64,000 nucleotides of DNA, from assembly GCF_030052815.1 (NCBI RefSeq), contig NC_079496.1, forward strand, positions 37,039,593 to 37,103,592, read 5' to 3'. Below, in pieces: positions 1,414 through 64,000 of the stretch; the stretch's first letter is position 1, and each line of letters starts with the position of its first letter. The translations under genes were made by a program, and so were the position numbers. The stretch is from Hevea brasiliensis. Its lineage: Eukaryota; Streptophyta; Magnoliopsida; Malpighiales; Euphorbiaceae. Under the pieces are notes generated by a model that saw only the letters and a program-made list of their open reading frames with translations, was not told where the DNA came from and searched no databases.

Positions 1414-4400
1414 TGTAACACCCTCATTGTAGCAATTATGTATATTCTATTGTTCCGGTGATTGGTGTCGGTTCGGACAGCTAGAACGTCTAGAAAAATA
1501 TTGAAACTAAAGTGAGGAACCATAATTAACTCAAATAATAAAAAGAAAAATATAGGAAAAATTTTAGAAATAAAATACAACCAAGTTAAATGAGCTGGTG
1601 CCATAACGATGGGTAACCTAGTGGGAAGTTGCGGTCCTCGCAACTAGAAGCCCTAAACTCGGGAGGAAATTCATAAAATAATTTTTGGGACTCAAGAGAA
1701 GAGTCATTGAGGATTCTATGGTATTAGAATACCAAGAAAAGGCTTAAAAAATTTTTTCAATTGGTACACGCAATTTTAGCTCGTTAAGCCAAAAGGAGGG
1801 CATTTTGGTCATTTCGTCTTTAGAGATGATTTTTTACCAACTTATCCATTTATGTAAGTGAATTATATGATATAAAATATGAACAAATATTGATGAAAAA
1901 TTTATTAAAAATGAATAGCAAGAGAAAGGAAAGAAAATAAAAATAAATGGGATTTATTACCTAATGCTTATGTAAGCATGAGGTAATTAAATCCTATGGC
2001 CAATCAAAATAAAGAACCACAATTAAAATACATTAAAAATAAAGAAAAGAGGGCAGAAATGTTGAACAAACAAGCAGCCTTCTCCCTTCTTCAAAACATC
2101 CCATACTTTCTCCCTCACTCCTCCATTTTTGGTTTACCAAAGCTTCCTTTCCTTAGTCCTCTCTCAACAAAACCCTAACTTAGAAACATAAAACCTTGAT
2201 ATTTCAGTTTGGTGAAGCTTTTGGGAGCAAAAGGAAGTGTAAAATAAGAGTTCTTTCAAGCATGAGATTAGCTCCATTAAAGGTTAGTGACCAAACTTAA
2301 TTTCTCTCTTTTAATTCATGTTGAAGGAGTGGTGTGCAATGCAAATTTACAAGAAAATTGAAAAAATATCACATGTATGCCTGTCTTAAAATTTCAGTAG
2401 CTTTGGTATAGGTAGGATTTTGGAGATTTCTTTGAATGGAAGTGGTACTCTAGCTGCCCTTAACACTAATATATTGATTAGGATAGTGAAGTGCAAGTGA
2501 ATGCAAAATTCTGAAATGGTAGGGCTAGGGTTTGGAATCAAATTGAGACTTTGTTCATGTATTTGGTGAAAGAGAGTTTTAATGGTCAATTACTGACCAT
2601 TTGGCTGTGTGTGAATAATAAATGAAGTGGTTTGTTTAGTGGGAATTGAAGTTACTGTGGCTGCCCTTGGTGACCTGCAGGACTGGGCATGAGTCCAACA
2701 GGTTTGGGTAGCAATAACTGGAGTTGTAGAAGTTCAATTGGTGTAAGGCCAATTGGACATGAAACTAGACACATAATGGCACAACTTTGGTGAAGAAACC
2801 AGGCCCAGAAAACTAAATCAAGGTGACTCTAAGATTGCCCTAATCTGGGTGACCTGTATTCTGCCTGGGCAAAATGACCAAATAAATAGTATTTATTCAT
2901 TTGGTCATAACTCAGTGTAGAAAGGTCTAATTGACCTAAAATTTTACCAGACAATAGCTGAGACATATACCTACAACTTTCATGAAGAAACCTAATGCAA
3001 AATTTTATCATAACATGTTCAAAAGGTGACTTGCAATCACTGCACAAAACACTATAGATTTGGTTAGTCCAAAAAATCTAGGGAGTTGGCAATCCTACCA
3101 GTCATGGTAATTAGGCCATAACTTTAGCTGCAAAACTCAAAATGGAGTGATTTAAAAAAATAAATGTAACTAGACACAATAAGGAACAACTTTCATGTTG
3201 ACAACTTTATCAAATTCCCACTGCAAAAATGACTAATCGAACAGTAAATACAAGGCTTGAAATCTGAAAATTTTAAACAAATAACATTAAGAGTAGAAAT
3301 GCTATTGGCAACCAATACCAACAATTTTCAAATGCAAATTGTGATATGTTGGGAGTATTAAAACCAATGTACCTATTGTCTATGCAAAAGTCAACATTTT
3401 TATTGACTAATGAAATGAATAGTAACACCTAACCTTAAAATTCAAGAATTGTACAATTTAAAAGTGTAACATGCCCTAGTATACCTAGCAAGATTGGCAT
3501 GGATAGGTTGGCATGCCAATAGGGTTCTGTTAGTAGTACTGCATATGGCTTCATGCCATTCTGTGTTTTATGGCCTTACGTGCTATTTTGTGTTAAAATA
3601 GCCTCTCGCTATGTTGATTGAGTTGTTATACTTGGGTTTTATCCCTGATAATTATTATACCTTATTGGTTGTTTTATTGCACACCGGGAGACACAATGTG
3701 ACCGATGGTGTGATGGTCTGAGGTACTTGGTACCCAGTGCCAGCTTATCCGTTTATTCAGTCCAGTCGACTAGTATAGGTTACTCGGGCAATCAAATAAA
3801 TCTTACCAAATCTTAATCGAATAATACTGCAAGAAATGCCAAATTGAGTCTACATAAAATGTAAACATACATTCTGCATATTTATTTTATTTTAGTTATT
3901 TTATTTTATATTGTCACCACTAAGCAGAATCGCTTAGCGCATCGCTTTTGCCACGCGCAGGTACTAGAGACATAGCTGGGGAGTCCAGCAGACCTCAGAA
4001 GGGGTGAACTTTCAGATCTGCACACAGAGTCACCTCACATTTGCAGTACATTGGTAGGACATTAAGCTACTTTTGATATTTTGTATTTTGTAAACTTTTG
4101 TAATGTATATTATAAACTCATGTAATTATGCTTTTGATGTAATTATCTATGAACCATGTTCAGTAATAAATTTCAGCATTTCTTATTGAGTTGAGTATGA
4201 CATGAAATGAATTGAATTTTGAGATATTGAAGTCATTTGAGAAATTGTTGAAAATATGTTGGTGGTTGACTGAGATTGAAATTATAATTATATTGGAAGT
4301 GTTTTTAACAGATTCAGAAGAACTGTTTTTCCAATTTACAGCCGGCACTCTGCCGGATTTTCTATAAAATTTGTAAAAAATATAGATTAATAAAAAATTA

Positions 4401-5685: not shown

Positions 5686-7992
5686 TATGCTAAATTGTCC
5701 AAGTGTGACTTCTGGATGAGTGAAATCTCCTTCCTTGGATACATAGTATTAGCTGAGGGAATTAGAGTAGACTCCAAAAAGATAGAAGCAATGATGGAAT
5801 GGAAGTCTCACAGAAATACAACTGAGGTCAGAAGTTTCTTAGGGCTAGCTGGGTATTATAGAAGATTTGTGAAGGGGTTCTCTCTCATAGCTGCTCCAAT
5901 GACCATGTTGTTACAAAAAAAATGTGAAATTTAGATGGAACAACAAGTGCCAAGCTAGTTTTGAGAGGTTAAAGGCTATGTTGACAGAAGCACCAGTGTT
6001 AACACAGCTAGTGTCGAGAAAAGACTTTGTGGTCTACAATGATGCCTCGCATAATGTTTTAGGGTGTGTATTGATGCAAGAGGGGAAAGTGGTCGCCTAT
6101 GCTTCCAGGCAGTTAAGGTCACATGAACAGAACTACCCTACTCATGACTTGGAGTTAGCAGCAATTATCTTCGCATTGAATATATGGAGGCATTATTTGT
6201 ATGGTGAAAAATGTTACATTTATACAGACCACAAAAGTCTAAAATATTTGCCAACCCATAAGGAGCTCAATCTTAGACAGAGGCAATGGATTGAGTTCCT
6301 AAAAGACTATGATTGTGTGATAGATTACCATCTTGGGAAGGCAAATGTAGTTGCTGATGCCTTGAGTAGGAAGTCCATCACAGCTTTAAGATCACTAAAT
6401 GCCTGTCTGTTCTTAGCTCAAGATGGAGCTATTTTGGATGAGTTACAAGTGAGGCCATACCTGTTACAGCAGATACAAGATGGGCAGAAGGCAAATGAAA
6501 AATTAATGGCTATTGTGGGTAAAATTCCAGAGGAAAATGAAACTGATTATGAGGTGAAAGCAGATGGGTGTCTGTACTACAGGGGAAGACTGTGTGTACC
6601 AGATGATGGGGAACTGAAGACTAGTATTCTGAAAAAAACGCACACTAGTGTTTATGCTATGCACTCAGAAAGCACAAAAATGAATAATGATTTGAAGCCT
6701 CATTTTTGGTGGCCTGGTATGAAGAGGGATATAGCTTACTATGTGACTAAGTGTTTGACATGTCAGCAAGTTAAAGTAGAATATCAAGTTCCATCAGGAT
6801 TGCTACAGCCTATAAGCATACCAGAATGGAAATGGGACCGGGTCACTATGGATTTTGTTAGTGGTCTACCTCTCACCCAGAAGAAGCATGATGCAGTGTG
6901 GGTGATAGTGGATAGATTAATGAAGTCAGCACATTTTCTACGAGTTAGGACTGACTACTCACTGGAGAAGCTAGCAGAATTGTATATCCGTGAGATAGTT
7001 AGACTGCATGGAATCCCACTTTCCATCATATCTGATCGAGACCCAAGGTTTACATCGAGATTTTGGAAAAAGTTGCAAGAAGCCTTGGGCACACAACTCT
7101 ACTTTAGCACAGCTTTTCATCCTCAGACGGATAGACAGTCAAAATGAGTAATCCAGGTCAACCTAAAAACTAATTGAATTTTTACAAATAATAAATTGAA
7201 ATGAGAGTAACAATGTGAATTATGTGAAAAATCTTGGAGGATATGCTGAGGAGTTGTGTCATTGAGTTTTAGGGGAGTTGGGATAGATATCTTCCATTGG
7301 CAGAATTTGCATATAATAATAGCTACGAAGCTAACATTCAAATGGCCCCGTATGAAGCACTGCATGGGAGGAAGTGTAGAACCCTAGTGTGTTGGAGTAA
7401 ATTGGATGAAGATAAGTTGGTAGGACTAGACCTGGTGAAACAGACTGAGGAGAAAGTGAAGATAATCAAAGCTAATTTGAAGGTTGCCTCAGATAGACAA
7501 AAATCTTATGCCGACTTGAAGAGAAAAGAGATAGAGTATGCAGTTGGCGACAAAGTGTTTCTCAAAGTCTCACCGTGGAAGAAAGTACTGGGGTTTGGAA
7601 GAAAGGGTAAGTTAAGCCCTAGGTTCATTGGCCCATATGAAGTTATTAAACGTGTGGGACCAGTGGCCTATCGGCTAGTTTTACCACTAGAACTGGATAA
7701 AATCCATAATGTATTCCATATGTCTATGCTAAGAAGATACTGCTCAGAACCTTCACATGTCATCTCAATGGAAGAGATTGAAATCCAACCGGATTTGACA
7801 TATACAAAAGAACCTATACGGATCCTGGCTCGCGAAGTGAAGGAACTGAGGAATAAACAAATTCCACTGGTGAAAGTACTTTGGAGGCACCATAATACTG
7901 AGGAGGCAACTTGGGAAAGTGAAGAGATGGTGAGGCAACAGTTCCTTCAACTGTTTGCATCAGGTAAATTTCGAGGACGAAATTTAAATTAG
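5686..7992 (+). pseudogene. pol remnant of element I: RT C-terminal part, RNase H, integrase, chromodomain
   Basis: It begins at the RT motif [10 protein letters not shown], after loss of everything from the zinc finger to the RT active site. A frameshift in the A-run at about 5920-5930 leads into RNase H ([20 protein letters not shown] near 6035-6095, TDHKSLKYL near 6225) and integrase: the zinc-binding H...C region near 6640-6765, then D (TMDFVSG, 6845-6865), D (ISDRDPRF, 7027-7050). At 7142-7147 the Glu of the motif DGQSER is lost (RQSK then stop). The decayed intron follows, then a frame with one stop (about 7270) through the integrase C-terminus to a chromodomain (about 7795-7960), ending at TAG 7990-7992. 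Tekay/Del clade by chromodomain. Confidence 0.88.
7157..7231 (+). other. Decayed intron-like segment in integrase of element I
   Basis: It occupies the same place as the 75-nt introns of II (12269-12343) and III (58357-58431), directly after ATCCAG. Donor is GTCAAC instead of GTAAAC. The acceptor CAG|GTC is replaced by an A-rich stretch, so the 3' boundary is only approximate. AT-rich. In this copy the site is probably not spliceable. Confidence 0.6.
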
Positions 7993-8420: not shown

Positions 8421-11400
8421 TGTGACACCCCTTACCCGGCTACAGTATATCCGAGTAAGATATGTCACACGGTGTACCGGCACACTCTATTTTGCCTTAA
8501 TTAATTTTTGTCATAATTTCGAATATAATTTATTTAAGCCATTTATCAAAAGTATTATTTATTTGAAGTTCCGAAAATTTTAAAGAAAATCCGGCAGAGT
8601 ACCGGCTAAAAATGGAGAAAACAGTTCTTCAGAACCTGTGAAAAACACTTCCAATATTCATGTCTCATCATCTCAAACTCCAATATCAAAATCTCAACAA
8701 CATTTCTCAATTTCAGTTCTCAATCATCCATCACATGTGATAATCAAGTATAAATCACAATTATATATTTACTTTTCCATTCACAAATACAATTTTCATA
8801 ATTTACATGAACATCAATATACATTACACAAGTTTAATTACATATGAGAAAATCAAAATTTATTTACAGAATGCCAAAATGACACCTAGTGTCCTACCAA
8901 TGCACTGCAGAAGTTGAGGTGACACGGACATCGTGCGTAAGCTGCAGGATGGACTCACCCGATCTGGCATCTTTGGGCTCACGATCTGTATCTCCAGAAC
9001 CTACGCGTGGCAAAAGCAACGCGCTAAGCAATAATGCTTAGTGGTGCAATAATAAAATAAAAGAAATAGCAAGAAATAAATATGTAGTGAATGTATATGT
9101 TTTATTTGTTTTGAATTTGTGTATCATTAACTTTGTCCACTTTTATTCATTTGGTTGCCCCAAGTAACCTACACTAGACGACTGGACTGGATAACGGGTA
9201 AACTGGCACTGGGTATCTAGTACCTCGGGCCGTCACACCATCGGTCACATATGCATCTCCCGGTGTGCAACAGAACAGCTACCAAGCTGTAAATAATCTC
9301 AGGCACAAGGCCAAATCTCAATGCAGGGTCAGAATGGCTAAAAGCCATGAAATCACAGAATGACATATTGCCATGTGCAGTACTACTAACTGAACCCTAT
9401 TGGCATGCCAAACTATCCAAACCAATCTTGTTAGGTATACTAGGGCATTTGAAACTTTTAAATTCTTCACTTTGTGAATTTCAAGTTTTGGCGTCACTAT
9501 TCACCTCATTGGTCAACAAAAATATTGACTTTTAGGTAGAAATTAGGTACATTGGTTTTGGCACCCCCAACATACCACATTTTGCATTTAAAACTTGTTG
9601 GAATTGGTCACCATTACCATTTCTAACTTAAAATCAAGAGGGCAGAAATTTCAGTTTTCAAAGCCTAAGTTTACTGTTCCATTAAGCACTGTTACAGTGG
9701 GAATTTGAAGAAATGGCAAACATGAAAGTTGTTCCTTATTTTGTCTAGTTGAATTTATTTTTTTGAATCACTCCATTTGGAGTTTTGTAGATTCAGATAT
9801 GGTCCAAAAACCACAGCTGGCCGGATTGCCAAAACTGCAGAATTACCAAATCTACAGTACCATGAACAGTGATTGTGACTGCCATTTGGGTTAGGTTGTA
9901 GTCATAATTTGGGGTAGGTTTCTTCATGAAAGTTGTTTGTCTATGTCTTAACTTGTTTCTGTAAAACTTTCAGGTCAATTGACCATTTCTACAGTGAGTT
10001 ATGGCCAAATGAACAGTTACTGTTCATTTGGTCATTTATGCAGGTGCTGTTGCAGGGTATCCGGATTGGGGCCAACTTTTGGTCCTCTTGCTTTGGTCTT
10101 TTGGGCATGGTTTCTTCAGCAAAAATGTGCCATTATAAGCCTCGTTTCATGTCCAATTGGCTAAACACCAATTGGACCTACACAGCCAAAGTTATGGCTG
10201 TCTAAGTGGGCTGGAATCACAGCCACCTTTGCTGCTGTCCCTAGGCAGCATACTCATTCACTTTGCCATGCTATATTTCAGTCCAAATTATGGTCAACTT
10301 ACCTAAAATGGTCCCTAATTGACCATTAAAATGTTCTCTAACAATTTCCTAAGCCAAGCCAAATTTTCACTTCTCAAAACCCTAATTTCCACATGAGTTT
10401 TCACAACATGCTTTAATTAACTATCTCATTCACTAACCACATGCATACATGGTTTAAACATAATCTCTAATCCACTTTAAATCCATCAAAACAATCCATT
10501 ATTGTTCCTTCAATAGGGCTGCCGAAATCCATGGTATGTATACACATAATTTTTGTTCATTTAAGTTACAAATCCTTACTCAATTCAAGTCACTATCATG
10601 GAATATAAGAGTTTAAGTAAATAGGTGCACTAACCTCTTGTAGGTAGATTTTTCCCAAGTTAAATCTTCACTTTCATTCCTTTTCTAGGCTGCCAAACAC
10701 TCTCCCATGATGAGTGGACAAATTTTAATGAAAGGGGTTTAGGGTTTATGGTGAAAAGAAGAGAGAAATTGAGCTTTGATTGAAGTTGTCAATGGAGGTT
10801 GGGCTATGGGCAAGGGTTTCGGCTGCATGAGGAAGAGGATGGCTGCTGTTTGCTTTTGATTATTTTGGTCTTCATTTTGTCTCTTTTATTAGTTAATGAA
10901 TTGGTTGTTTGAATGCAATTGGTTATAGCTTTTAATGACATCATCATGATGTCATAAATAAGCCTTTTTCCTTATTTTCTTTTCTTTTCTTCACTACTCA
11001 TTTTCAATTTAATTTCTAGTAATGTTTATTTATATTTTATGTCATATTAATTATTTACTCAACTGGACAAGTCGGCCAAAAATCACCTCTGAAGGCGAAA
11101 TGACCAAAATGCCCTCCGTTTGTCTTAACGGGTCAAAATTGTCTGTACCGATTGAAAAATTTTTCTAAGTATTTTCTTGGCATTCTAATTCCATGGGAAC
11201 CTCAATAACCCTTCTCTGGAGTCCCAAAAATTATTTTATAATTTTTCCCCCGGGTCTAGGGCTCCTAGTTGCGAGAGCCGCAACTTCCCTCTGGGTTACC
11301 CATCACTAGGGCACCGGCTCGTTTAATTTGGTTGTATTTTAATTCTAAAATTTTTACTAAATTTTTCTTATCAATATTTGAGTTGATTATGGTTCTTCAC

Positions 11401-11498: not shown

Positions 11499-11511
11499 AC
11501 TCTTCCCCTCT
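11499..11511 (-). other. Polypurine tract of element II
   Basis: On the minus strand AGAGGGGAAGAGT, abutting the 3' LTR at 11498. Same sequence as in element I. Confidence 0.85.
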
Positions 11512-12268
11512 AATTTAAATTTCGTCCTCGAAATTTACCTGATCCAAACAGTTGAGGGAACTGTTGCCTCATCGTCTCTTCACTTTCCCAAGTTGCCTCC
11601 TCGGTTTTGTGGTGCCTCCAAAGCACTTTCACCAGTGGAATCTGCTTATTCCTCAATTCTTTTACTTCCCTAGCTAGGATCCGTAGAGGTTCTTCTTCAT
11701 ATGTCAAATCTGGTTGTATTTCAATTTCTTCCCTGGAGATGACATGTGAAGGATCTGAGTGGTATCTTCTGAGCATGGACACGTGGAACACATTGTGGAT
11801 CTTGTCCAGCTCTGGTGGTAAAGCTAGCCTGTAGGCTACTGGTCCCACACGTTCAATGACTTCATATGGGCCAATAAACCTAGGGCTCAACTTACCTTTC
11901 CTTCCAAACCTTCATACCTTTTTCCACGGTGACACCTTGAGGAACACTTTGTCGCCAACTGTGTATTCTATTTCTTTTCTCTTCAGGTCGGCATAAGATT
12001 TCTATCTGTCTGAGGCAACCTTCAGATTAGCTTTGATTAGTTTCACTTTCTCCTCAGTCTGTTTCACAGTGCAGCCCTACGATTTGTCTTCGCCCAATTC
12101 AGTCCAGCAAACTGGAGTTCTACATTTTCTCCCATACAGTGCTTCATATGGGGCCATTTGGATGCTAGCTTGGTAGCTATTGTTGTATTCAAATTCTGCC
12201 AGTGGGAGGTATCTATCCCAACTCCCCTCAAACTCAATGACACAACTCCTCAGCATATCCTCAAGGAC
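11510..12268 (-). pseudogene. Integrase C-terminal domain and chromodomain, element II (second exon)
   Basis: Reading from the intron acceptor at 12268, the frame continues [15 protein letters not shown], then the integrase C-terminal domain (KLSPRFIGPYEV, about 11890-11855, the GPY/F-like module), HNVFHVSMLRRY and a chromodomain (about 11695-11540; aromatic W-R-H and ATWESEE motifs), ending at 11510-11512. The chromodomain is thought to bind modified histone tails and steer integration into heterochromatin. Lesions: a garbled stretch at about 12065-12085 (EDK then stop), a stop in place of Gln at about 12004, and an indel near 11910. The final 126 codons are clean. There is no usable start of its own; expression would depend on splicing from the upstream exon. 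Confidence 0.88.
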
Positions 12269-12343
12269 CTGACATATATTTCATGTTATTGTTATCATTT
12301 TAATTCAATATTTGTATCAATTCCATTGGTTTCAATTGTTTAC
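12269..12343 (-). other. Putative 75-nt spliceosomal intron inside integrase, element II
   Basis: On the minus strand: donor CAG|GTAAAC at 12343, acceptor TGTCAG|GTC at 12269/12268. About 23% G+C, as plant introns usually are. Reading through meets TGA in the fourth intron codon, whereas removal joins ATCCAG to GTCCTTGAG and gives IQVLEDML, the expected continuation of plant gypsy integrase. The same 75-nt interval with GT...AG ends is present in element III. It lies just after the catalytic Glu (SERVIQ). Splicing itself is not demonstrated. Confidence 0.75.
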
Positions 12344-14185
12344 CTGGATTACTCTTTCTGATTGCCCATCCGTCTGAGGATGGAAAGTCATCTTGAAGTG
12401 GAGTTGTGTACCCAAGGACTCATGCAACTTCTTCCAAAATCTCGATGTAAACCTTGGGTCTCTATCAGATATGATGGAAAGTGGAATTCCATGCAGTCTA
12501 ACTATCTCACTGATATACAATTCTGCTAACTTTTCCAGTGAGTAGTCAGTTCTAACTGGCAGAAAGTGTGCTAACTTGGTCAATCTATCCACTATCACCC
12601 ATGCTGCATCATGTTTCTTTCGGGTGAGAGGTAGACTACTTACAAAATCCATGGTGACCCGATCCCATTTCCATTCAGGTATGCGTATAGGCTGTAGCAA
12701 ACCCGATGGAACTTGATGTTCTGCCTTGACTTGCTTACATGTCAAGCATTTAGTCACATAGTCAGCTATGTCTTTCTTCATACCAGGCCACCAATACTGC
12801 AGCTTCAGATCATGATACATCTTTGTACTTCCTGGGTGCATAGCATATGCACTGGTGTGTGCCTCTTTCAGAATACTAGCCTTCAATTCCCTATTATCTG
12901 GTACACACAGTCTTCCTTTGTAATACAGACACCCACCGGCTTTCACCTCATAGTCAGTTGCTTTTCCCTCTGGAATTTTGCTCATAATAGCCATTAACTT
13001 TTCATCTATTTTTTGCCTATCTAAAATCTGCTGTAGCAGGTTTGGCCTCACTTGCAACTCAGCCAAAATAGCTCCATCTCGAATCAAAGTTAGACGGGCA
13101 TTCAATGATCTCAAAGTTGTCATGGATTTTCTGCTCAAAGCATCAGTAACTACATTTGCCTTCCCAGGATGGTAGTCAATTACACAATCATAGTCTTTCA
13201 GGAACTCAATCCATCGCCTCTGTCTAAGGTTGAGCTCCTTCTGAGTTGGCAAGTATTTCAGACTTTTATGGTCTGTGTAAATGTAGCACTTTTCACCATA
13301 CAAGTAATGCCGCCATATCTTCAATGCGAAGATAATTGTTGCAAGCTCTAGATCATGGGTAGGGAAATTCTGTTCGTGTGGCCTTAGCTGCCTGGAAGCA
13401 TAAGCGACCACCTTCCCCTCTTGCATTAGTACACACCCTAACCCGTTATGAGAGGCATCACTGTAGACCACAGAGTCCTTTCCTAACACTGGCTGTGTTA
13501 ACACTGGTGCCTCTGTCAACATAGCCTTTAACTTCTCAAAACTGGTCTGACACTTGTTATTCCAGTCAAATCTGACATTCTTATGTAACAACTTGGTCAT
13601 TGGAGCAGCTATTAAGGAAAATCCCTTCACAAATCTTCTGTAATACCCAGCTAGCCCCAAGAAGCTTCTGACCTCAGTTGTATTCCTGGGAGGCTTCCAT
13701 TCCATCACTGCTTCTATTTTCTTGGGATCCACCCTAATCCCATCAGCTGACACTATGTGTCCAAGGAATGCAATCTCATTCAACCAAAAGTCACATTTGG
13801 ACAACTTAACATACAGCTTCTTTTCTCTCAGGGTTTGCAGAACAATCCTCAAATGTTCATCATGTTCTTCCCTGGTCTTGGAATACACCAAAACATCATC
13901 AATAAAGACCACTACAAACCAATCTAAGTGTGGATGGAAGATACGGTTCATAAGGTCCATAAATGCCGCTGGTGCATTTGTTAGGCCAAAGGGCATCACC
14001 AGAAACTCATAATGCCCATACCGAGTCCTGAATGCAGTCTTGGGCACATCTACATCCTTCACCCTCAACTGATGATACCCTGATCTGAGATCAATTTTAG
14101 AAAATACTCCTGCTCCCTTCAACTGATCAAACAGATCATCAATTCTAGGCAATGGATATTTGTTCTTCACAGTCACTTTATTCAA
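12332..14185 (-). CDS. Element II pol: RT, RNase H, integrase catalytic core (open frame)
   Basis: An open frame of 617 codons on the minus strand. Near its start are the RT fingers/palm ([12 protein letters not shown], about residues 29-40) and the catalytic FIDD motif (about residue 95). RNase H carries [14 protein letters not shown] (about 242-256) and TDHKSLKYL (about 305). Integrase has a zinc-binding H...H...CLTC region (about 440-480), D in TMDFVS (about 513), D in SDRDPRF (about 575) and E in DGQSERV (about 610). It ends in VIQVNN because the frame enters the intron at 12343 and meets TGA. Upstream it is separated from the RT N-terminus only by one TAG (14186-14188), which is CAG in element III; so the first Met is not a genuine start. 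It would copy RNA into DNA and join the ends to the genome. Confidence 0.92.
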
Positions 14186-16339: not shown

Positions 16340-18671
16340 TGTGACACCACTTACCTGGCTACAGTATATCCGAGTAAGATATGTCACACGGTGTACCGGT
16401 ACACTCTATTTTACCTTAATTAATTTTTGTCATAATTTTGAATATAGTTTATGAAATACAATTTATTTAAGCCATTTATCAAAAGTATTATTTATTTGAG
16501 GTTCCGAAAATTTTAAAGAAAATCCGGCAGAGTATCGGCTAAAAATGGAGAAAACAGTTCTTCGGAACCTGTGAAAAACACTTCCAATATTCATGTCTCA
16601 TCATCTCAAACTCCAATATCAAAATCTCAACAACATTTCTCAATTTCAGTTCTCAATCATCCATCACATGTGATAATCAAGTATAAATCACAATTATATA
16701 TTTACTTTTCCATTCACAAATACAATTTTCATAATTTACATGAACATCAACATACATTACACAAGTTTAATTATATATGAGAAAATCAAAATTTATTTAC
16801 AGAATGCCAAAATGACACCTAGTGTCCTACCAATGCACTGCAGAAGTTGAGGTGACACGGACACTGTGCAGAACTGCAGGATGGACTCACCCAGTCTGCG
16901 GTCTACTGGGCTCACGATCTGTATCTCCAGAACCTATGCGTGGCAAAAGCAACGCGCTAAGCAATAATGCTTAGTGGTGCAATAATAAAATAAAAGAAAT
17001 AGCAAGAAATAAATATGTAGTGAATGTATATGTTTTATTTGTTTTGAATTTGTGTATCATTAACTTTGTCCACTTTTATACATTTGGTTGCCCCAAGTAA
17101 CCTACACTAGACGACTGGACTGGATAACGGGTAAACTGGCACTGGGTATCTAGTGCCCCGGGCCGTCACACCATCGGTCACATATGCATCTCCCGGTGTG
17201 CAACAGAACAGCTACCAATCTGTAAATAATCTCAGGCACAAGGCCAAATCTCAATGCAGGGTCAGAATGGCTAAAAGCCATGAAATCACAGAATGGCATA
17301 TTGCCATGTGCAGTACTGCTAACTGAACCCTATTGGCATGCCAAACTATCCAAACTAATCTTGTTAGGTATACTAGGGCATTTGAAACTTTTAAATTCTT
17401 CACTTTGTGAATTTCAAGTTTTGGCGTCACTATTCACCTCATTGGTCAACAAAAATATTGACTTTTAGGTAGAAATTAGGTACATTGGTTTTGGCACCCC
17501 CAACATACCACATTTTGCATTTAAAACTTGTTGGAATTGGTCACCATTACCATTTCTAACTTAAAACCAAGAGGGCAGAAATTTCAGTTTTCGAAGCCTA
17601 AGTTTACTGTTCCATTAAGCACTGTTACAGTGGGAATTTGAAGAAATGGCAAAAATGAAAGTTGTTTCTTATTTTGTCTAGTTGAATTTATTTTTTTGAA
17701 TCACTCCATTTGGAGTTTCGTAGCTCTAGATATGGTCCAAAAACCACAGCTGGCTGGATTGCCAAAACTGCAGAATTACCAAATCTACAGTACCATAAAC
17801 AGTGACTGTGACTGCCATTTTGGTTAGGTTCTAGTCATAATTTGGGGTAGGTTTCTTCATGAAAGCTTTTTTTCTATGTCTTAACTTGTTGCTGTAAAAA
17901 TTTCAGGTCAATTGACCATTTCTACAGTGAGTTATGGCCAAATGAACAGTTACTGTTCATTTGGTCATTTCTGCAGGTGCTGTTGCAGGGTATCCGGATT
18001 GGGGCCAACTTTTGGTCCTCTTACTTTGGTCTTTTGGGCATGGTTTCTTCAGCAAAAATGTGCCATTATAAGCCTAGTTTCATGTCCAATTGGCCAAACA
18101 CCAATTGGACCTACACAGCCAAAGTTATGGCTGTCTAAGTGGGCTGGAATCACAGCCACCATTGCTGCTGTCCCTAGACAGCATACTCATTCACTTTGCC
18201 ATGCTATATTTCAGTCCAAATTATGGTCAACTTACCTAAAATGGTCCCTAATTGACCATTAAAATGTTCTCTAACAATTTCCTAAGCCAAGCCAAATTTT
18301 CACTTCTCAAAACCCTAATTTCCACATGAGTTTTCACAACATGCTTTAATTAACTATCTCATTCACTAACCACATGCATACATGGTTTAAACATAATCTC
18401 TAATCCACTTTAAATCCAATAAAACAATCCATTATTGTTCCTTCAATAGGGCTGCCGAAATCCATGGTATGTATACACATAATTTTTGTTCATTTAAGTT
18501 ACAAATCCTTACTCAATTCAAGTCACTATCATGGAATATAAGAGTTTTAAGTAAATAGGTGCACTAACCTCTTGTAGGCAGATTTTTCCCAAGTTAAATC
18601 TTCACTTTCTTTCCTTTTCTAGGCTGCCAAACACTCTCCCAAGATGAGTGGACAAATTTTAATGAAAGGGG
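16340..18671 (-). repeat. 5' LTR of element II, truncated
   Basis: Collinear with 8421 to about 10743 of the 3' LTR, with few differences. At 18671-18673 it jumps within GGTT into element I LTR sequence equivalent to position 2250. The outer ~0.75 kb of this LTR, its target duplication and ~0.42 kb of the element I LTR are missing. The 13-bp palindrome is at 17938-17950 and 17952-17964. Confidence 0.9.
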
Positions 18672-20475
18672 TTCTTACAAGCTTGAGATTAGCTCCATTA
18701 AAGGTTAGTGACCAAACTTAATCTCTCTCTTTTAATTCATGTTGAAGGAGTGGTGTGCAATGCAAATTTACAAGAAAATTGAAAAAATATCACATGTATG
18801 CCTTTCTTAAAATTTTAGCAGCTTTGGGATAGGTAGGGTTTTGAAGATTTCTTTGAATGGAAGTGGTACTCTAGCTGCCCTTAGCACTAATATATTGATT
18901 AGGATAGTGAAGTGCAAGTGAATGTAAAAATCTAAAATGGTAGGGCTAGGGTTTGGACCCAAATTGAGACTTTGTTCATGTATTTGGTGAAAGAGAGTTT
19001 TAATGGTCAATTACTGACCATTTGGCTATGTGTGAATAAGAAATGAAGTGGGAATTGAAGTTAGAGTGGCTGCCCTTGGTGGCCTGCAGGACTGGGCATG
19101 ATTCCAACAGGTTTGGGCAGCAATAACTGGAGTTATACAGGTTTAATTGGTGCAAGGCCAATTGGACATGAAACTAGACACATAATGTAACAACTTTGGT
19201 GAAGAAACCATACCTAGAAAACCAAACCAAGTTGACTTAAAGATTGCCCTAATCCGGGTGACCTACATTCTGCCTGGGCAAAATGACCAAATGAACAGTG
19301 TTTATTCATTTGGTCATAACTTAGTGTAGAAAGGTCCAATTGATCTAAAATTTTAACAAAAAATATCTGAGACAGTGGCCTACAACTTTCATGAAGAAAC
19401 CTAACCCAAATTTTGACCATAACATGTTCAAAAGGTGACCTGCAGTCACTGCACAAAACACTATAGATTTGGTCAGTCTTGAAAATCTGGGGAGTTGGCA
19501 ATCCGGCCAGTCATGGTAATTAGGCCATAACTTCATATACAAAACTCCAAATGGAGCAATTAAAAAAAAAGAAATGTAACTAGACATAATAAGAAACAAC
19601 TTTCATGTTGACAACTTTGCCAAATTCCCACTGCAAAAATTACAAATGGAACAATAAATACGAGGCTTGTAATCTGAAAGTTATGAACTAACATTAAGCT
19701 TAGAAATGGTATTGGCAACCAATACCAATAATTTTAGAATGAAAAATGTGGTAAGTTCGGAGTATGAAAAATGTGAAAAATGTGCCTATTGTCTATGCAA
19801 AAGTCAACATTTATGTTGACTAATGAAATGAATAGTAACACCTAACCTTAAATTTCAAGAATTGTACAATTTAAAAGTGTAACATGCCCTAGTATACCTA
19901 GCAAGATTGGTTTGGATAGGTTGGCATACCAATAGGGTTCTGTTAGCAGTACTACATATGGCTTCATGCCATTCTATGTTTTATGGCTTCAAGTGTCATT
20001 CTGTGTTATAATAGCCTTTGGCTATGTTGATTGAGTTGTTATACATGGGTTTTATCCCTGATAATTATTACAGCTTATTAGACACAATGTGACCGATGGT
20101 GTGATGGTCCGAGGTACTTGGTACCCAGTGCCAGTTTACCCATTTATCCAGTCCAGTCGACTAGTATAAGTTATTCGGGCAGTCAAATAAAATCTTATCA
20201 AATCTTAATTGAATAGTACTACAATAAATGCCAAATTGAGTCTACATAAAATGTAAACATACATTCTGCATATTTATTTTATTTTAGTTATTGTATTTTA
20301 TATTGTCACCACAAAGCAGAATTGCTTAGCACATTGCTTTTGCTACGTGCTGGTACTAGAGACATAGCTGGGGAGTCCAGCAGACCTCAGACCGGGTGAG
20401 CTTTCAGATCTGCACATAGAGTCCAGAGTCACCTCGCATTTGCAGTACATTGGTAGGACATTTGGCTACTTTTGA
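18672..20475 (+). repeat. 3' LTR of element I, second segment
   Basis: Collinear with about 2251-4072 of the 5' LTR. It ends at the family-B insertion; TTTGA (20471-20475) is the left copy of a perfect target-site duplication. No coding content. Confidence 0.88.
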
Positions 20476-37619: not shown

Positions 37620-39388
37620 TATTATCGAGAAAATTAAGTGCGAAATAACCAGATTAATTAGTAAATGTATCGTAATTAACCAAATATGATTATGGTCTTT
37701 TAATCAAATTGGTCCTCCCACTAACTTAGCGAATTCTACACTTCCAAAGTAGAAAACGGAAATCCTAGTTGGATGGATTTCTAGTGGGTGATTGAATTCT
37801 TATAATTCTATTGATCATCCTCAGGTACATCCATTATTGGAATTACAATAAACTATAAGTGAGCAACTCCTTGCCCATCACATCTCATGTGAGGTTCAAT
37901 CCTTTATCTAGCCCCTAATGCTCAAAATCTCGTGTACATCCATTATTGACTTATCTTGCATTAGTTAAGTTGATCCCATTGAGCCAGTAATTATGCAAAT
38001 AATTTTAATGTCCTCAGGTACATCCAATATTGGCCACCAAACCATTTACATATTTACAACATCTCATGCTTAACAATTATTCTTAAGAAAATCTCTTAAA
38101 TTAATTGCATCTCATGCAACTATTTAAAATTTCTTAAAATAATTGCCCCAATGGAGGGCTTATGTTATAATTACTTTAATTATAGCATTTCCAACTTAAT
38201 CATTTGTTTGGAAGATTTTATAGCCATCCTTATTACTATTAAGGTCTCACTTTGCACATTATCCATTTAGCATGCATATATCATATAATTGCATACATTC
38301 CCATACATCTCATGCATTCATGGATAAGCAGTAAATATGGTATGATCATGGACTTTCTAAGGGATTCAATTCTGAGCCACCAAGAATTGAATCAGGGCAT
38401 TCCTAGGTGCATTTCATTCATTTATTTTACAACAGTTGCTGAAGGAGTACATAATCAACACTTGATATTGAATTCCTCCCACCGGTCCCACCAATGCTCT
38501 TTACCTCCTTGAACTTCTTGCAATCCAATATTACATAGTAATCCTTGGCATACCAAGGCGAATTTACAAGAACTTAAATAAATGAAATTACAACCCAAAA
38601 ATATTACAAACTTAATAATACATGCCCAAAATAAATTAAAATAAATTAATTAATTTACAATCCTAAAGAAACATAAAAGAAATAAATCCAATCACATTGG
38701 TCTTTTATAGTCCATGATCATCCATCATGCATATCACTATTTAACAATTAAATAAAACATACATACTTAAATTAAATTGAATATCTCATATTCAACTTAA
38801 AAATCAGATTTGAATATTATTCATATAAATTTAAAAATTCAGATTTGAATCTCATTCAAACAACTTTAAAAATTCAGATTTGAATCACATTCAAACAACT
38901 TCAAAAATTCAGATTTGAATCACATTCAAACATTTTTTAAAAAATCAGATTTGAATCACATTCAAATATTTTTTAAAAAATCAGATCTGAATTTTATTGA
39001 ATCAATTTTAAAAAATCAGATTTAAATATGATTCAAACAACTTTAAAAATTCAGATTTGAATCACATTCAAACAACTTTTAAAATTCAGATTTGAATCAC
39101 ATTCAAACAATTTTTAAAATTCTGATTTGAATCATAATTTAATTGTGTGATTAAAACAACTAATTAAACACTTTAATTAGTCAAAGAATAGGCCTTAGAT
39201 CATACAATAATTGCAGAATTAAAAGCCAAACCTTGAACCACCCAAGGAACCATTGTTGCCGCCACCAATGGTGGCTTCACCATGTGTGACGCCACATCTT
39301 ATGATCCAACCAGCAATGAATCAATCATCTCATGATCAAATCACACAATTAAATCATATAATCAACAATCTAAATGGCAAATATAGTG
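37620..39388 (-). other. Long untranslated leader of copia 1
   Basis: About 1.77 kb between primer site and gag with no recognisable protein. It contains a 35-bp tandem array (38770-39145) and three copies of a phrase containing GTACATCCA (about 37825, 37934, 38017). It would be the 5' UTR of the genomic RNA, where packaging and dimerisation signals usually lie. Confidence 0.75.
38770..39145 (-). repeat. 35/36-bp tandem array of hairpin units in copia 1 leader
   Basis: AGATTT (or AGATCT) marks unit starts at 38806, 38841, 38876, 38911, 38947, 38983, 39018, 39053, 39088 and 39123: spacing 35 or 36. The best units contain TTTGAATCACATTCAAA, a perfect 7-bp inverted repeat around a 3-nt loop. 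Confidence 0.88.
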
Positions 39389-46023: not shown

Positions 46024-47800
46024 TTTTATCAGAAAATTAACTGTAGAAAATAACCAGATTAATTAGTAAATATATCATGTAATTAACCAAAATGATTATG
46101 GTCTTTTAATCAAATTGGTCCTCCCACTAACTTAGCGAATCCTATACTTCCAAAGTAGAAAACGGAAATCCTAGTTGGATAGATTTCTAGTGGGTGATTG
46201 AATTCTTATAATTCTATTGATCATCCTCAGGTACATCCATTATTGGAATTACAATAAACTATAAGTGAGCAACTCCTTGCCCATCACATCTCATGTGAGG
46301 TTCAATCCTTTACCTAGCCCTTAATGCTCAAAATCTCAGGTACATCCATTATTGACTTATCTTGCATTAGTTAAGTTGATCCCATTGAGCCAGTAATTAT
46401 GTAAATAATTTTAATGTCCTCAGGTACATCCAATATTGGCCACTAAACCATTTACATATTTACAACATCTCATGTTTAACAATTATTCTTAAGAAAATCT
46501 CTTAAATTAATTGCATCTTATGCAACTATTTAAAATTTCTTAAAATAATTGCCCCAATGGAGGGCCTATGTTATAATTACTTTAATTATAGCATTTCCAA
46601 CTTAATCATTTGTTTGGAAGATTTTATGGTCATTCTAATTACTATTAAGGTCTCACTTTGCACATTATTCAATTAGCATGCATATATCATATAATAGCAT
46701 ACATTCCCATACATCTCATGCATTCATGGATAAGCAATAAATATGGTATGATCATGGACTTTCTAAGGGATTCAATTCTGAGCCACCAAGAATTGAATCA
46801 GGGCATTCCTAGGTGCATTTCATTCATTCATTCATTTTACAAGAGTTGCTGAAGGAGTACATAATCAACACTTGATCTTGAATTCCTCCCACTGGTCCCA
46901 CCAATACTCTTGACCTCTTTGAACTTTTTGCAATCCAATATTACATAGTAATCCTTGGCATACCAAGGTGAATTTACGAGAACTTAAATAAATGAAATTA
47001 CAACCGAAAAATTATTACAAACTTAATAATACATGCCCAAAATAAATTAAAATAAATTAATTAATTTACAATCCCAAAGAAACATAAAAGAAATAAATCC
47101 AATCACATTGTTCTTTTATAGTCCATGATCATCCATCATGCATATCACTATTTAACAATTAAATAAAACATACATACTTAAATTAAATTGAATATCTCAT
47201 ATTCAACTTAAAAATCCATATTTGAATATGATTCAAATAAATTTAAAAATTTATATTTGAATCTCATTCAAACAAATTTAAAAATTCAGATTTGAATCAC
47301 ATTCAAACAACTTTAAAAATTCAGATTTGAATCACATTCAAACATTTTTTAAAAAATCAGATTTGAATCACATTCAAACATTTTTTTAAAAATCAGATCT
47401 GAATTTTATTCAATCAATTTTAAAAAATCAGATTTAAATATGATTTAAACAACTTTAAAAATTCAGATTTGAATCACATTCAAACAACTTTTAAAATTCA
47501 GATTTAAATCACATTCAAACAATTTTTAAAATTCTGATTTGAATCATAATTTAATCGTGTGATTAAAATTACTAATTAAACACTTCAATTAGTCAAAGAA
47601 TAGGTCTTAGATCATAGAACAATTGCATAATTAAAAGCCAAACCTTGAACCACCCATGGTAGCCAAACCATGCGCACCATTGATGGTGTTTTTTTAAAGT
47701 ATGCCGCCACCTTGCTTTGCAACCAGCAATGATCTTTTGATCTCATGGTCAAACACACAATTAAATCATATAATCAACAATCTAAATGGCAAATATAGTG
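46024..47800 (-). other. Long untranslated leader of copia 2
   Basis: About 1.78 kb without recognisable protein, collinear with 37620-39388. Three related phrases containing GTACATCCA lie at 46225-46246, 46335-46354 and 46418-46439. The 35-bp array lies in 47180-47550. Confidence 0.75.
47180..47550 (-). repeat. 35/36-bp tandem array of hairpin units in copia 2 leader
   Basis: Ten or so units like those at 38770-39145, with the same TTTGAAT...ATTCAAA inverted repeats. Some units differ (CCATATTTG, TTATATTTG for CAGATTTG), yet the stem complementarity is mostly kept. Confidence 0.87.
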
Positions 47801-51280: not shown

Positions 51281-54139
51281 CGTGACACCCCTTACCCGTC
51301 TACAGTATATCCGAGTAAGCTATGTCACACGGTGTACCGGAACACTCTATTTTATCTTAATTAATTTTTATCATAGTTTTGAATATAATTTATGAAATAT
51401 AATTTATTTAAGCCATTTATCAAAATTATAATTTATTTGAGGTTCCGATAATTTTATAGAAAATCCGGCAGAGTACCGGCTAAAAATGGAGAAAACAGTT
51501 CTTCGGAACCTGTGAAAAACACTTCCAATAATCATATTCAATCATTCTCAAACTCCAATATCAAAATCTCAATATTCTTCAATTTCATTTCTCAATCATT
51601 CATTTCTCATGGTACTCATATACATAAACAATAAATAAATACTCAAATTTTTCCATTCATAACCATAATTTTTCATTATTTACATGAACATCAAAATACA
51701 TTACATAAGTTTCATTTACACAAAGGAAAATAAAAGTTAGTTACAAAATACCAAAATGAAGCCTAGTGTCCTACCGCACTGTAGATAGTGAGGTGACACG
51801 GATACTATGCAGAGCTGCAGGAGGTCTCACCCAGTCTGTGGTCTACTGGGCTCTCGTTCAGTATCTCCAGAACCTACGCGTGGCAAAAGCAACGCGCTAA
51901 GCAATAATGCTTAGTGGTGCCAATAATAAAATAAAAAGAAATAACAGGAAGTAAACATGCAGTGCATGTATCGATGACTTATTTGTTTTGTACTTGTTAT
52001 ATTCATTATTTCGTTAAATTTATCCACTTTCATTTTTTTTAGTTGCCCAAGTAACCTATACTAGATGACTGGACTAGATAAACGGGTAAACTGGCACTGG
52101 GTATCTAGTACCTTGGGCCGTCACACCATCGGTCACATATGCATCTCCCGGTGTGCAACAGAACAGCTAATAAGCTGTAATGACAATAGGCACAAGGCCA
52201 ATTATCAATACAATGTCAGAATGGCTAAAAGCCATGAAATCACAGAATGGCATAATGCCATGTGCAGTACTGCTAACTGAACCCTATTGGCATGCCAAAC
52301 TATCCAAACCAATCTTGTTAGGTATACTAGGGCATTTGATACTTTTGAATTCTTCAATTTTTGAATTTCAAGTTTTAGTGTCACTATTCACTTCACTAGT
52401 CAACAAAAATGTTGACATTTGCATAGAAAATAGGTACATTGTTTTTAACACTCCCAATGTACCACATTTTGCATTCAAAACTTGTTGGAATTAATCAGCA
52501 ACACCATTTCTAAGCTTAAAACTAAGGGAGCAGAAATTTCAGTTTTTGTACCCTAAATTTACTGTTCCCTTAGTTACTGTTGCAATGGGAATTTGAGAAA
52601 GTGATAAACATGAAAGTTGTTCCTTATTTTGTCTCGTTGAATTTCTTTTTTTGAATCACTTCATTTGGAGTTTTGTAGCTCCAGTTATGGTCCAAAAACC
52701 ACAGCTGACCGGATTGAAAAATTGCAGAACTGACCATATCTACAGTGCAGTGAATAGTGACTGCAACTGCCTTGTTGGATAGGTTGGTCATAATTTGGGG
52801 TAGGTTTCTTCATGAAAGTTGTTGGTCTATATCATAAATTGTTGCTGTAAAAAGTTTAGGTCAATTGGGCCATTCTACAATGAGTTATGGCCAAATGAAC
52901 AATTACTGTTCATTTGGTCATTCTGCAGAATCTGGTTGCAGGACATCCGGATTGGGGCCAGTTTTTGGTCCACTTGATTTGGTCTTTTGGGCATGGTTTC
53001 ATCACCAAAATTGTGCCATTATGTGTCTAGTTTCATGTCCAATTGGCCAAACACCAATTGAACCTACACAGCCAGAGTTATGGCAGTCCAAACAGGCTGG
53101 ACTCACAGCCTCACCTACTGCCCTCACTAGGCAGCATACCAATTCATTTTTTAATACCCTAATTCACTTCAAATTATGGTCAACTTACCTCAAATGGTCA
53201 CTAATTGACCATTAGAATGTTCACTCACCATTTCATGAGCAAAGTCCAAGTTTCTCTCCAAAACCCTAACCCTAATTGACCAAGGCTCCAATTCATGCAT
53301 CCCACTCCTAATTTGCTATACTAATCATATAATTTATAAGAGGGGCAGCAATATGTCACTTTAAACCAAAGATTTCTCCTAACCCTAACTCATATCAAGG
53401 CTGCCAAAACTTCATGGAATATAACCATGCTTCATTTATTCAATTTTTGTCAAATTTTTAACTTAACTTAGCTCAAATTCATGATTAGAAAGATATAAAA
53501 GCAAAAGTTATGGCACTAACCTCTTTGGTGATTTTCTAAGCTTGTTCACACCTCACTTTCTTCCACTTTCTTTTGTTTTCTTGGCTTCCAAACACTCTAG
53601 CAAGGTTGGGTGACAAATTTTAGTGAAGGGACCTAAGGGTTTTGGGGTGAGAAATCAAAGATTGAAGGTATGAGAGAATGAGAGTTATGGAGGAAGAAGG
53701 AGAAACTAACGGCTGGCTGAAGAAGAAGGAGAAAACACCAGAATTTTTGGGTCCATTTTGTCTCTTTTAATTGTTTTAAGAAGGCTTGTTGAATGGTGAT
53801 TGGTGGAGGGTATGTAAATGACATCATGTGATGTCATTATCCCTAATTTCCTTCATTTTTTTTCTTTTCTTTTCTACCAAATTTCAATTTAATTTTTAGC
53901 AATATTTATTCATATTTTATGTCATAATAATTATTTACTTAACTGGACAAGTCAGCCAAAAATCATCTCTGAAGGCGAAATGACCAAAATGCCCTCCGTT
54001 TGGCTTAACGGGTCAAAATTGTCTGTACCGATTGAAAATTTTTTCTAAATATTTTCTTGGCATTCTAATGCCATATGAACCTCAATGACCCTTCTCTGGA
54101 GTCCCAAAAATTATTTTATGAATTTTTCCCCTGGTCTAG
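51281..54139 (-). repeat. 3' LTR of element III, first segment
   Basis: Starts CGTGACACCCC (first base T to C), collinear with 8421 to about 11257. It contains the palindromes at 52891-52917 and 53817-53838. The last five bases, TCTAG (54135-54139), are the left duplication of the nested solo LTR. Confidence 0.9.
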
Positions 54140-57596: not shown

Positions 57597-58356
57597 AATT
57601 TAAATTTCGTCCTCGAAATTTACTTGATGCAAACAGTTGAGGAAACTGTTGCCTCATCGTCTCTTCACTTTCCCAAGTTGCCTCTTCAGTGTTGTGGTGC
57701 CTCCAAAGCACTTTCACCAGTGGAATCTACTTATTCCTCAACTCTTTCACTTCTCGAGCCAGGATCCATATGGGTTCTTCTTCATATGTCAAATCCGGTT
57801 GTATTTCAATTTCTTCCCTAGAGATGATATGTGAAGGATCTGAGCGGTATCTTCTTAGCATAGATACGTGAAACACATTGTGGATCTTGTTCAGCTCTGG
57901 TGGTAAAGCTAGCCTATAGGCCACTGGACCCACACGTTCCATGACTTCATATGGGCCAATGAACCTAGGGCTCAACTTACCTTTTCTTCCAAATCTCAAT
58001 ACCTTCTTCCACGGTGACACCTTTTGGAACACTTTATCGCCAACCACATATTCTATTTCTTTTCTCTTCAGGTCGACATAAGATTTCTGTCTGTCTGAGG
58101 CAACCTTCATATTGGCTTTGATTAGTTTTACTTTCTCCTCAGTCTGTTTCACCAAGTCTGGCCCTACCAGTTTGTCTTCACCCAATTCAGTCCAGCACAT
58201 TGGAGTTCTACATTTCCTCCCATACAGTGCTTCATACGGGGCCATTTGGATACTAGCTTGGTAGCTATTGTTGTATGCAAATTCTGCTAGTGAGAGGTAT
58301 CTATCCCAACTTCCCTCAAATTCAATGACACAACCCCTCAGCATATCCTCAAGGAC
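57595..58356 (-). pseudogene. Integrase C-terminal domain and chromodomain, element III (second exon)
   Basis: From the acceptor at 58356 the frame reads [20 protein letters not shown] without break through KLSPRFIGPYEV and NVFHVSMLRRY to ILAREVKELRNK. There TAG (57727-57729) replaces the CAG of element II. The rest of the chromodomain (LVKVLWRHHNTEEATWESEE) lies in the same frame to the stop at 57595-57597. Only this one lesion is seen, so this exon is better kept than in II. Confidence 0.9.
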
Positions 58357-58431
58357 CTGGCATATATTTCATGTTATTATTATCATTTTAATTCAATATT
58401 TGTATCAATTCCATTGGTTTCAATTGTTTAC
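58357..58431 (-). other. Putative 75-nt spliceosomal intron inside integrase, element III
   Basis: Donor CAG|GTAAAC at 58431, acceptor TGCCAG|GTC at 58357/58356. The length matches element II, with only two base differences, one of them in the acceptor region (TCAG to CCAG, still AG). An in-frame TGA in the fourth codon stops read-through. Confidence 0.75.
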
Positions 58432-62403: not shown

Positions 62404-64000
62404 TGTGACACCCTTACCCGCTCACAAGATATCCGAGTAAGCTATGTCACACGGCAAATTTGAACACTCTATTTTATCTTAATTAATTTTTATCATAGTT
62501 TTGAATATAATTTATGAAATATAATTTATTTAAGCCATTTATCAAAATTATAATTTATTTGAGGTTTCGATAATTTTATAGAAAATCTGGCAGAGTACCG
62601 GCTAAAAATGGAGAAAACAGTTCTTCGGAACCTGTGAAAAACACTTCCAATAATCATATTCAATCATTCTCAAACTCCAATATCAAAATCTCAATATTCT
62701 TCAATTTCATTTCTCAATCATTCATTTCTCATGGTACTCATATACATAAACAATAAATAAATACTCAAATTTTTCCATTCATAACCATAAATTTTCATTA
62801 TTTACATGAACATCAAAATACATTACATAAGTTTCATTTACACAAAGGAAAATAAAAGTTAGTTACAAAATACCAAAATGAAGCCTAGTGTCCTACCAAT
62901 GCACTATAGATGGTGAGGTGACACAGACACTATGCAGAGTTGCAGGAGGTCTCACCTAGTCTGTGGTCTACTGGGCTCTCATTTAGTATCTCCAGAACCT
63001 ACGCGTGGCAAAAGCAACGCGCTAAGCAATAATGCTTAGTGGTGCCAATAATAAAATAAAAAGAAATAACAGGAAGTAAACATGCTGTGCATGTATCGAT
63101 GACTTATTTGTTTTGTACTTGTTATATTCATTATTTCGTTAAATTTATCCACTTTCATTTTGTTTTAGTTGCCCAAGTAACCTATACTGGATGACTGGAC
63201 TAGATAAATGGGTAAACTGGCACTGGGTATCTAGTACCTCGGGTCGTCACACCATCGGTCACATATGCATCTCTCGGTGCAATGTATCAGCCTAATAAGT
63301 CAGTAATGACAATAGGCACAAGGCCAAATATCAATACAATGTCAGAATGGCTAAAAGCCATGAAATCACAGAATGGCATAATGCCATGTGCAGTACTGCT
63401 AACTGAACCCTATTGGCATGCCAAACTATACAAACCAATCTTATTAGGTATACTAGGGCATTTGATACTTTTGAATTCTTCAATTTTTGAATTTCAAGTT
63501 TTGGTGTCACTATTCACTTCACTAGTCAACAAAAATGTTGACTTTTGTATAGAAAATAGGTACATTGGTTTTAACACTCCCAATGTACCACATTTTGCAT
63601 TCAAAACTTGTTGGAATTAATCACCAATACCATTTCTAAGCTTAAAACTAAGGGAGCAGAATTTTCAGTTTTTGTACCCTAATTTTACTGTTCCATTAGT
63701 TACTGTTGCAATGGGAATTTGAGAAAGTGATAAACATGAAAGTTGTTCCTTATTTTGTCTAGTTGAATTTCTTTTTTTGAATCACTTCATTTGGAGTTTT
63801 GTAGCTCCAGTTATGGTCCAAAAACACAGCTGGCCGAATTGAAAAATTGCAGAACTAACCATATCTACAATGCAATGAATAGTGACTGCAACTGCCTTGT
63901 TGGATAGGTTCTGATCATAATTTGGGATAGGTTTCTTCATGAAAGTTGTTGGTCTATATCGTAAATTGTTGCTGTAAAAAGTTCAGGTCAATTGGGCCAT
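62404..64000 (-). repeat. 5' LTR of element III, cut by the window end
   Basis: Starts TGTGACACCC and is nearly identical to 51281 to about 52873. The start (62404-62460) and a stretch near 63270-63310 show the same CAG/CTG garbling as the neighbouring coding region. No gene. Confidence 0.9.

Follow-up and report, generated by a model that had tools for sequence, protein, structure and literature searches.

The stretch of DNA analyzed here (the window) comprises 64,000 nt of the 1.88-Gb Hevea brasiliensis genome (C4:37039593-37103592). It contains two Ty3/gypsy retrotransposons on the minus strand, termed elements II and III, and a homologous segment from a third, element I (Table 1). Element II has a 2.3 kb LTR pair and encodes RNase H followed by the zinc-binding integrase domain. 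The scores for the SH3-like C-terminal domain and the chromodomain were taken on the downstream exon of another copy, L019, where the chromodomain model PF00385 reaches 26.2 bits (cut-off 25.1); chromodomain residues are visible in elements II and III as well. We describe the family as a Tekay-like chromovirus, a clade name that follows an earlier reading of the window from its letters alone (the sequence-only reading) and the abundance of Tekay in Hevea. Tekay/Del chromoviruses have been reported as the most abundant retrotransposon lineage of Hevea, accounting for 76.1% of RT domains and amplified 2 to 10 My ago (PMC7353026). Elsewhere in the window, positions 38764-39275 and 47176-47580 hold tandem arrays of a 35-nt unit within a repeat whose copies lie ~7.4 to 8.4 kb apart between ~30 and 50 kb; these arrays perhaps sit inside another element family.

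Table 1. Positions of element features within the window; exon sides and LTR sides are given in element sense.
Feature	Position	Strand	Remarks
Exon 1 side, element II	12344..14185	-	Open frame: RNase H, integrase zinc finger, most of catalytic core; ends ..GQSERVIQ
75-nt intron, element II	12269..12343	-	GTAAAC...TGTCAG, phase 0, stop past 3 sense codons
Exon 2 side, element II	11510..12268	-	End of integrase core, SH3-like C-terminal domain, chromodomain; 3 premature stops
LTR, element II, 5' side	16340..18673	-	Pairs with 8421..10739
LTR, element II, 3' side	8421..10739	-	96.8% identity to partner LTR
75-nt intron, element III	58357..58431	-	2 differences from element II intron
Exon 2 side, element III	57598..58356	-	1 premature stop; low end approximate
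LTR, element III, 5' side	62405..64000	-	Cut by window end; partner match to 51282..52873
Part of LTR, element III	51282..52873	-	95.9% identity to 62405-64000
Decayed intron homologue, element I	7157..7231	+	Donor GT retained, acceptor lost, ~30% diverged from other introns

The integrase frames of elements II and III are interrupted at a common codon boundary by a segment of 22.7% GC. The donor side reads CAG before and GTAAAC after the boundary, and the acceptor side reads TG(T/C)CAG before and GT after it. In both elements the upstream frame closes with ..GQSERVIQ and the downstream frame opens with VLEDMLR; reading into the segment meets an in-frame TGA past three sense codons. These properties, noted in the sequence-only reading, were confirmed, as was its description of the 75-nt homologue in element I as a decayed version, the 3' end of which reads GTGAAAAA. 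Since three and one premature stops follow the segment in elements II and III, respectively, these copies are themselves decayed. A 131-nt query consisting of the element II intron and its flanks gave at least 40 genome matches at 99-100% identity, its own copy included (40 of 1371 candidates scored). The pol region of element II aligns with its homologue P0231 in one frame from 14224 to 11516, so that no second intron is needed in pol. Over this region the intron lies inside integrase and not, as in Ogre elements, between the gag-protease and RT regions.

The three copies in the window are real, but they are part of a far wider pattern. An insert of 60-90 nt between exact flanks of 15 and 18 nt occurs at 4,135 places in the genome, and a control search with the reversed pattern gave none. 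The joined 33-nt junction that would result from removal of the segment was found at 866 sites when up to 3 mismatches were allowed (control: 0). At least 100 of these intronless junctions are exact, all 100 among the matches listed; they span C1 to C3 and C4 up to 78.2 Mb, or ~24% of the genome, from which we extrapolate an estimate of ~420 exact intronless copies in the whole genome. This large class of intronless copies was not among the observations of the sequence-only reading. Partial inserts are almost absent. Inserts of 1-30 nt between exact flanks were found nowhere in the genome (control: 0), and inserts of 31-59 nt at eight places (control: 0), all of them introns with inner or donor-side deletions. 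The absence of the intron is thus exact, as splicing yields and random deletion does not. It is observed at the DNA level; each such copy would descend from an intron-bearing parent. The eight shortened introns (48-59 nt; C2:24587311, C2:47921117, C2:47929028, C4:26615641, C8:61611845, C8:62769118, C8:74467512, and C12:99018548) keep AG in 8/8 and GT in 7/8 cases, one lacking the donor side, and offer a possible test of minimal splicing length.

We read 50 introns in full. All of them begin with GT, end with AG, and contain the early in-frame stop past three codons; 45 start with GTAAAC and 45 end with TGTCAG. These counts describe a nonrandom sample, because the copies were picked by exact exon flanks or as window copies, and 30 of them also by a near-identical intron. 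One copy (L044) starts with GTAAAT, and in one listed row among the 60-90 nt insert matches (C1:44877781) the donor GT is gone. The length is 75 nt in 47 introns and 74 nt in three. The latter (L076, L077, and L083) represent a type that lacks one A close to the donor, and although their length is not a multiple of three, the early in-frame stop is still present. Plant introns have a minimal length of about 70 nt, and the introns found here, with 74-75 nt and a mean GC content of 22.6%, lie above this limit and are AT-rich. They lack the U-richness relative to exons that is described as typical of plant introns (PMC3735527): averaged over the 50 introns, U makes up 26.9% compared with 25.4% in the flanks, and A makes up 50.5%. 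The donor has no G at +5 and a pyrimidine tract is not clear. By plant standards this would be a weak intron, A-rich rather than U-rich and with a GTAAAC donor, and such weak signals make partial splicing plausible. A consensus splice scan of the 64-kb window (27 candidate intervals) did not single out the interval at the thresholds used, and the sole candidate below 27% GC was a different place. Because signal strength did not pick the interval, the case for an intron rests on the comparison of copies. A 23-nt donor-spanning pattern gave no match in viral contigs.

Comparison of 19 diverse copies gave a mean intron divergence of 0.113. The corresponding values for codon positions 1/2/3 are 0.053/0.049/0.102 and 0.065/0.056/0.150 in the two exons. 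The intron therefore diverges like third codon positions, that is, like silent sites, while its first 4 nt (0.026) and last 4 nt (0.05) are conserved. Conserved splice sites around a drifting interior, which the sequence-only reading had proposed to look for in related genomes, are thus found among the copies of the Hevea genome. By these divergences, the age of the intron matches that of the sampled radiation. Within the intron, positions 33-40 (ATATTGAA) form the least varied inner stretch (0.066 versus 0.224 at positions 17-24), making this a candidate branch-point region. The exon behind the stop shows coding constraint. Among 30 intron-bearing copies, shared exon 2 SNPs with a minor count of at least 5 are distributed 10:7:40 over codon positions 1:2:3. 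Transversions by themselves are distributed 1:1:4, so this excess depends on transitions. Given the third-position excess in both SNPs and divergence, exon 2 appears to be translated in replicating lineages.

To locate the site within the enzyme we used L018, a naturally intronless copy that contains one open stretch of 555 residues through the site (P0241). The glutamate of the DDE triad, which we take to be residue 462 of P0241 in the motif GQSER, lies four codons before the site, and the intron is inserted in phase 0. P0241 aligns with Ty3 Gag-Pol (7q5b, E 4.8e-79) and with the integrase of PFV (3l2q, E 7.3e-24). The alignment with PFV and Ty3 integrase reaches residue 520, 54 residues beyond the site, which follows residue 466. 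Reading through unspliced RNA would hence retain the triad and lose these 54 aligned residues, the SH3-like C-terminal domain, and the chromodomain. The sequence-only reading had predicted the loss of the two C-terminal domains, and both would be lost, but the end of the catalytic core would go with them. The idea of a switch between targeted and untargeted integrase is weak, because the site falls within the catalytic core; the truncated protein is more likely inactive than untargeted. The Pfam model of the integrase core scores below its cut-off of 32.6 bits across intronless and truncated readings (21.7, 21.8, and 19.3 bits) and is therefore uninformative on this point, whereas the structure-sequence alignment does show the truncation. 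P0135 (94% identical; from a contig of 2,066 bases, source 'jgi') terminates in the unspliced reading. Family members with an intact frame through the segment had been named as evidence against an intron. L018 fits that description in a formal sense only, since it lacks the segment precisely and does not read through it.

Taken together, the conserved ends, the drifting interior, the coding constraint downstream, and the exact intronless junctions with almost no intermediates are what a partly spliced intron should leave behind, as the sequence-only reading had proposed. We consider it quite likely that this abundant Tekay-like chromovirus family carries an old spliceosomal intron, which is removed from only part of the family's RNA. 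The main question is then how the intronless copies arose. We compared 50 intron-bearing copies with 40 intronless ones, adding element I without assigning it to either state. The intron-bearing set contains 30 copies with one intron type (type a; 28 of the 40 matches at 99-100% identity plus elements II and III) and 20 copies, all on C1, chosen by eye for different types from the listed insert matches; the intronless set consists of 40 of the 100 listed exact junction rows. One copy, L072, forms a long branch in the tree of these copies. With its flank unaligned, it was left out of the divergence, distance, SNP-SNP, intron-SNP, and presence-linkage analyses and of the methylation-filtered tree.

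In the tree of 50 and 40 copies, intron presence changes state at least 25 times, compared with a mean of 29.7 after shuffling (27 or 22 of 500 shuffles were as low), and well-supported branches force at least six changes. Removal of methylation-prone columns (651 of 1,020 kept; 49 and 40 copies) gave 23 changes versus 29.5 (4 or 6 of 500 as low) and at least seven forced changes. For this tree, whose bootstrap did not converge, the AU test rejects a grouping of all intronless copies in one clade (AU p 5.07e-6). Intronless copies also form supported sister pairs with copies carrying different intron types (L055-L006, L027-L084, L059-L085, and L020-L086). Six intronless copies (L011, L019, L021, L022, L062, and L066) group together in a clade without intron-bearing members (support 99/95), and such all-intronless clades suggest that some intronless lineages may have multiplied. 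In a first sample containing type-a introns only, the states were clearly clustered, with 14 changes versus 22.9 after shuffling and 0 of 500 shuffles as low. There, the nearest copy was intronless for 32 of the 40 intronless and for 9 of the 30 intron-bearing copies, and presence linkage gave r2 bin means of 0.019-0.093 versus an expected 0.014. In the first trees, of 28 loci plus the window's three copies, decay at the outer ends was too strong for a judgement.

Linkage bears on the same question. SNPs within the intron are correlated with flank SNPs (r2 ~0.10, shuffled 0.05) about as much as flank SNPs are with each other (0.11-0.15; 19 copies). Since its own SNPs track the flanks, the intron does not move from one background to another. 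Between intron presence and the flanks, r2 is 0.0173, a value that none of 300 shuffles reached (0.0116 after shuffling; 89 copies). The 30 common flank SNPs have a median r2 of 0.0253 in the same copies, and 4 of them fall below intron presence. Presence is thus weakly linked, as expected of a state lost repeatedly. Both alleles occur in both classes, with and without intron, at 115 of 116 sites, and SNP-SNP linkage is low beyond 20 bases. Recombination or recurrent mutation is therefore frequent and could shift intron presence from one background to another.

This last point is the basis of an alternative that we regard as unlikely, yet as the most serious of those considered. The intron would have been gained once, the intronless lineages would always have been without it, and an old polymorphism would have been reshuffled by switches of template among RNAs packaged together; the intron would still be spliced, but intronless copies would not come from spliced RNA. 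Relatives in other plants fit such a history. Among 240 related proteins (two of which are our own queries), 125 are continuous at the site, the remainder being proteins without the site (94), proteins ending within 60 residues of it (12), and others (9). A Manihot protein is continuous there, although it may be a spliced gene model. The intronless state would therefore be ancestral at some depth. Low SNP-SNP linkage, some private alleles and own clades among the intronless copies, and the partial clustering of the label point the same way. On the other hand, linkage of intron SNPs to the flanks about equals that between flank SNPs, 26 of the 30 common flank SNPs show stronger linkage than presence does, the intron has diverged as deeply as silent sites, and copies of different intron types have intronless copies as supported sisters. 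The best reading of trees and linkage is that the intron was lost recurrently and not in one event.

It is very improbable that the insert is an unspliced, neutral passenger of a split or truncated integrase, the downstream part of which would start from an ATG in exon 2 (..VLED-M-LRSC). This ATG is the fifth codon of exon 2, which stays open for 236 to 253 codons in 5 of the 31 copies read. Several database relatives are annotated from the same methionine, which may merely reflect gene calling. Such a passenger would leave unexplained the conserved GT-AG ends and the hundreds of exact splice junctions with almost no intermediates, and the cut would fall inside the catalytic core. That intronless copies stem from precise DNA-level deletion, from gene conversion between copies, or from assembly artefacts is scarcely credible even in so repetitive a family, given the near absence of leftovers (0 at 1-30 nt, 8 at 31-59 nt), the distribution of the 100 listed intronless rows over four contigs (C1 to C4), and the private changes in each of the 40 copies fetched.

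If the intron is partly spliced, as we favor, the two RNAs could divide the tasks of the element. Unspliced RNA would be the usual packaged genome, since most copies found keep the intron, and its pol reading would end inside the integrase core. It would provide Gag, protease, RT, and a truncated integrase. Spliced RNA would encode integrase in full, C-terminal domain and chromodomain included, and this enzyme would act in trans on unspliced genomes. Occasionally, spliced RNA would itself be packaged and reverse transcribed, giving rise to an intronless copy, and some of these copies would then have multiplied. With weak splice signals, little RNA would be spliced, the dose of integrase would stay limited, and the genome RNA would mostly remain unspliced. 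A switch between genome RNA and full-length integrase mRNA, suggested in the sequence-only reading, fits the DNA-level evidence for partial splicing. Tentatively, we extend this model to an enforced two-RNA life cycle, a possibility we hold with a good deal less confidence than the intron itself: the RNA that is copied could not encode integrase, and every integration would need a spliced sister RNA. Selection against the intronless form would then keep the intron although copying of spliced RNA destroys it, and the family would amount to a natural record, across the genome, of the frequency at which spliced RNA is packaged.

Spliced RNAs have been described for the plant LTR elements Ogre, EVADE, BARE1, Bagy2, and CRR, and in the parts of these sources available to us none of the five is ascribed an intron inside integrase (PMC6317226, PMC12786077, PMC3735527). 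Ogre, a Ty3/gypsy element of the Tat lineage in pea and Medicago, has its intron between the gag-protease and the RT-RH-integrase frames (PMC12786077), whereas in the Hevea family, a chromovirus, the intron interrupts the catalytic core of integrase and so gates this enzyme only. BARE1, a Ty1/copia element of barley, resembles the Hevea family in having a small, partly used intron (104 nt) and separate RNA pools for protein and replication, but splicing there removes pol expression and leaves Gag only; DNA copies of spliced BARE RNA reportedly could not be amplified from barley (PMC3735527). EVADE, a Ty1/copia element of Arabidopsis, likewise splits roles between RNAs by alternative splicing, but its shGAG strategy splices out the protease region (PMC12786077). 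The 1985 test with intron-marked TyH3, and reporters built later, showed loss of an intron on passage through spliced RNA (PMC12786077). The TyH3 intron was artificial, whereas the Hevea family carries a natural one that has seemingly been put to the same test many times and has mostly been kept. The main text of the Hevea retrotransposon survey, as far as available, contains no wording on splicing or integrase, and its one passage on introns concerns genes (PMC7353026). In sunflower, splicing was described in other elements, Tekay being absent from the expressed set in the portion of the report consulted (PMC7730604). Among the literature matches listed, titles and abstract openings describe no integrase intron in a Tekay element; this coverage leaves out most subscription journals and does not prove absence. 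We appear to be dealing with a real intron at a new place, with a new genomic signature, inside a known kind of strategy, for which the function given above is a proposal.

Retroelements must separate RNA for copying from RNA for translation. One of the largest repeat families of this plant genome seems to do so by gating a single enzyme, integrase, with an inefficient intron. Thousands of copies preserve both outcomes, and from their ratio by age and intron type one could measure how often spliced RNA leaks into replication. That thousands of copies retain an intron that can be removed raises the question as to which selection maintains it.
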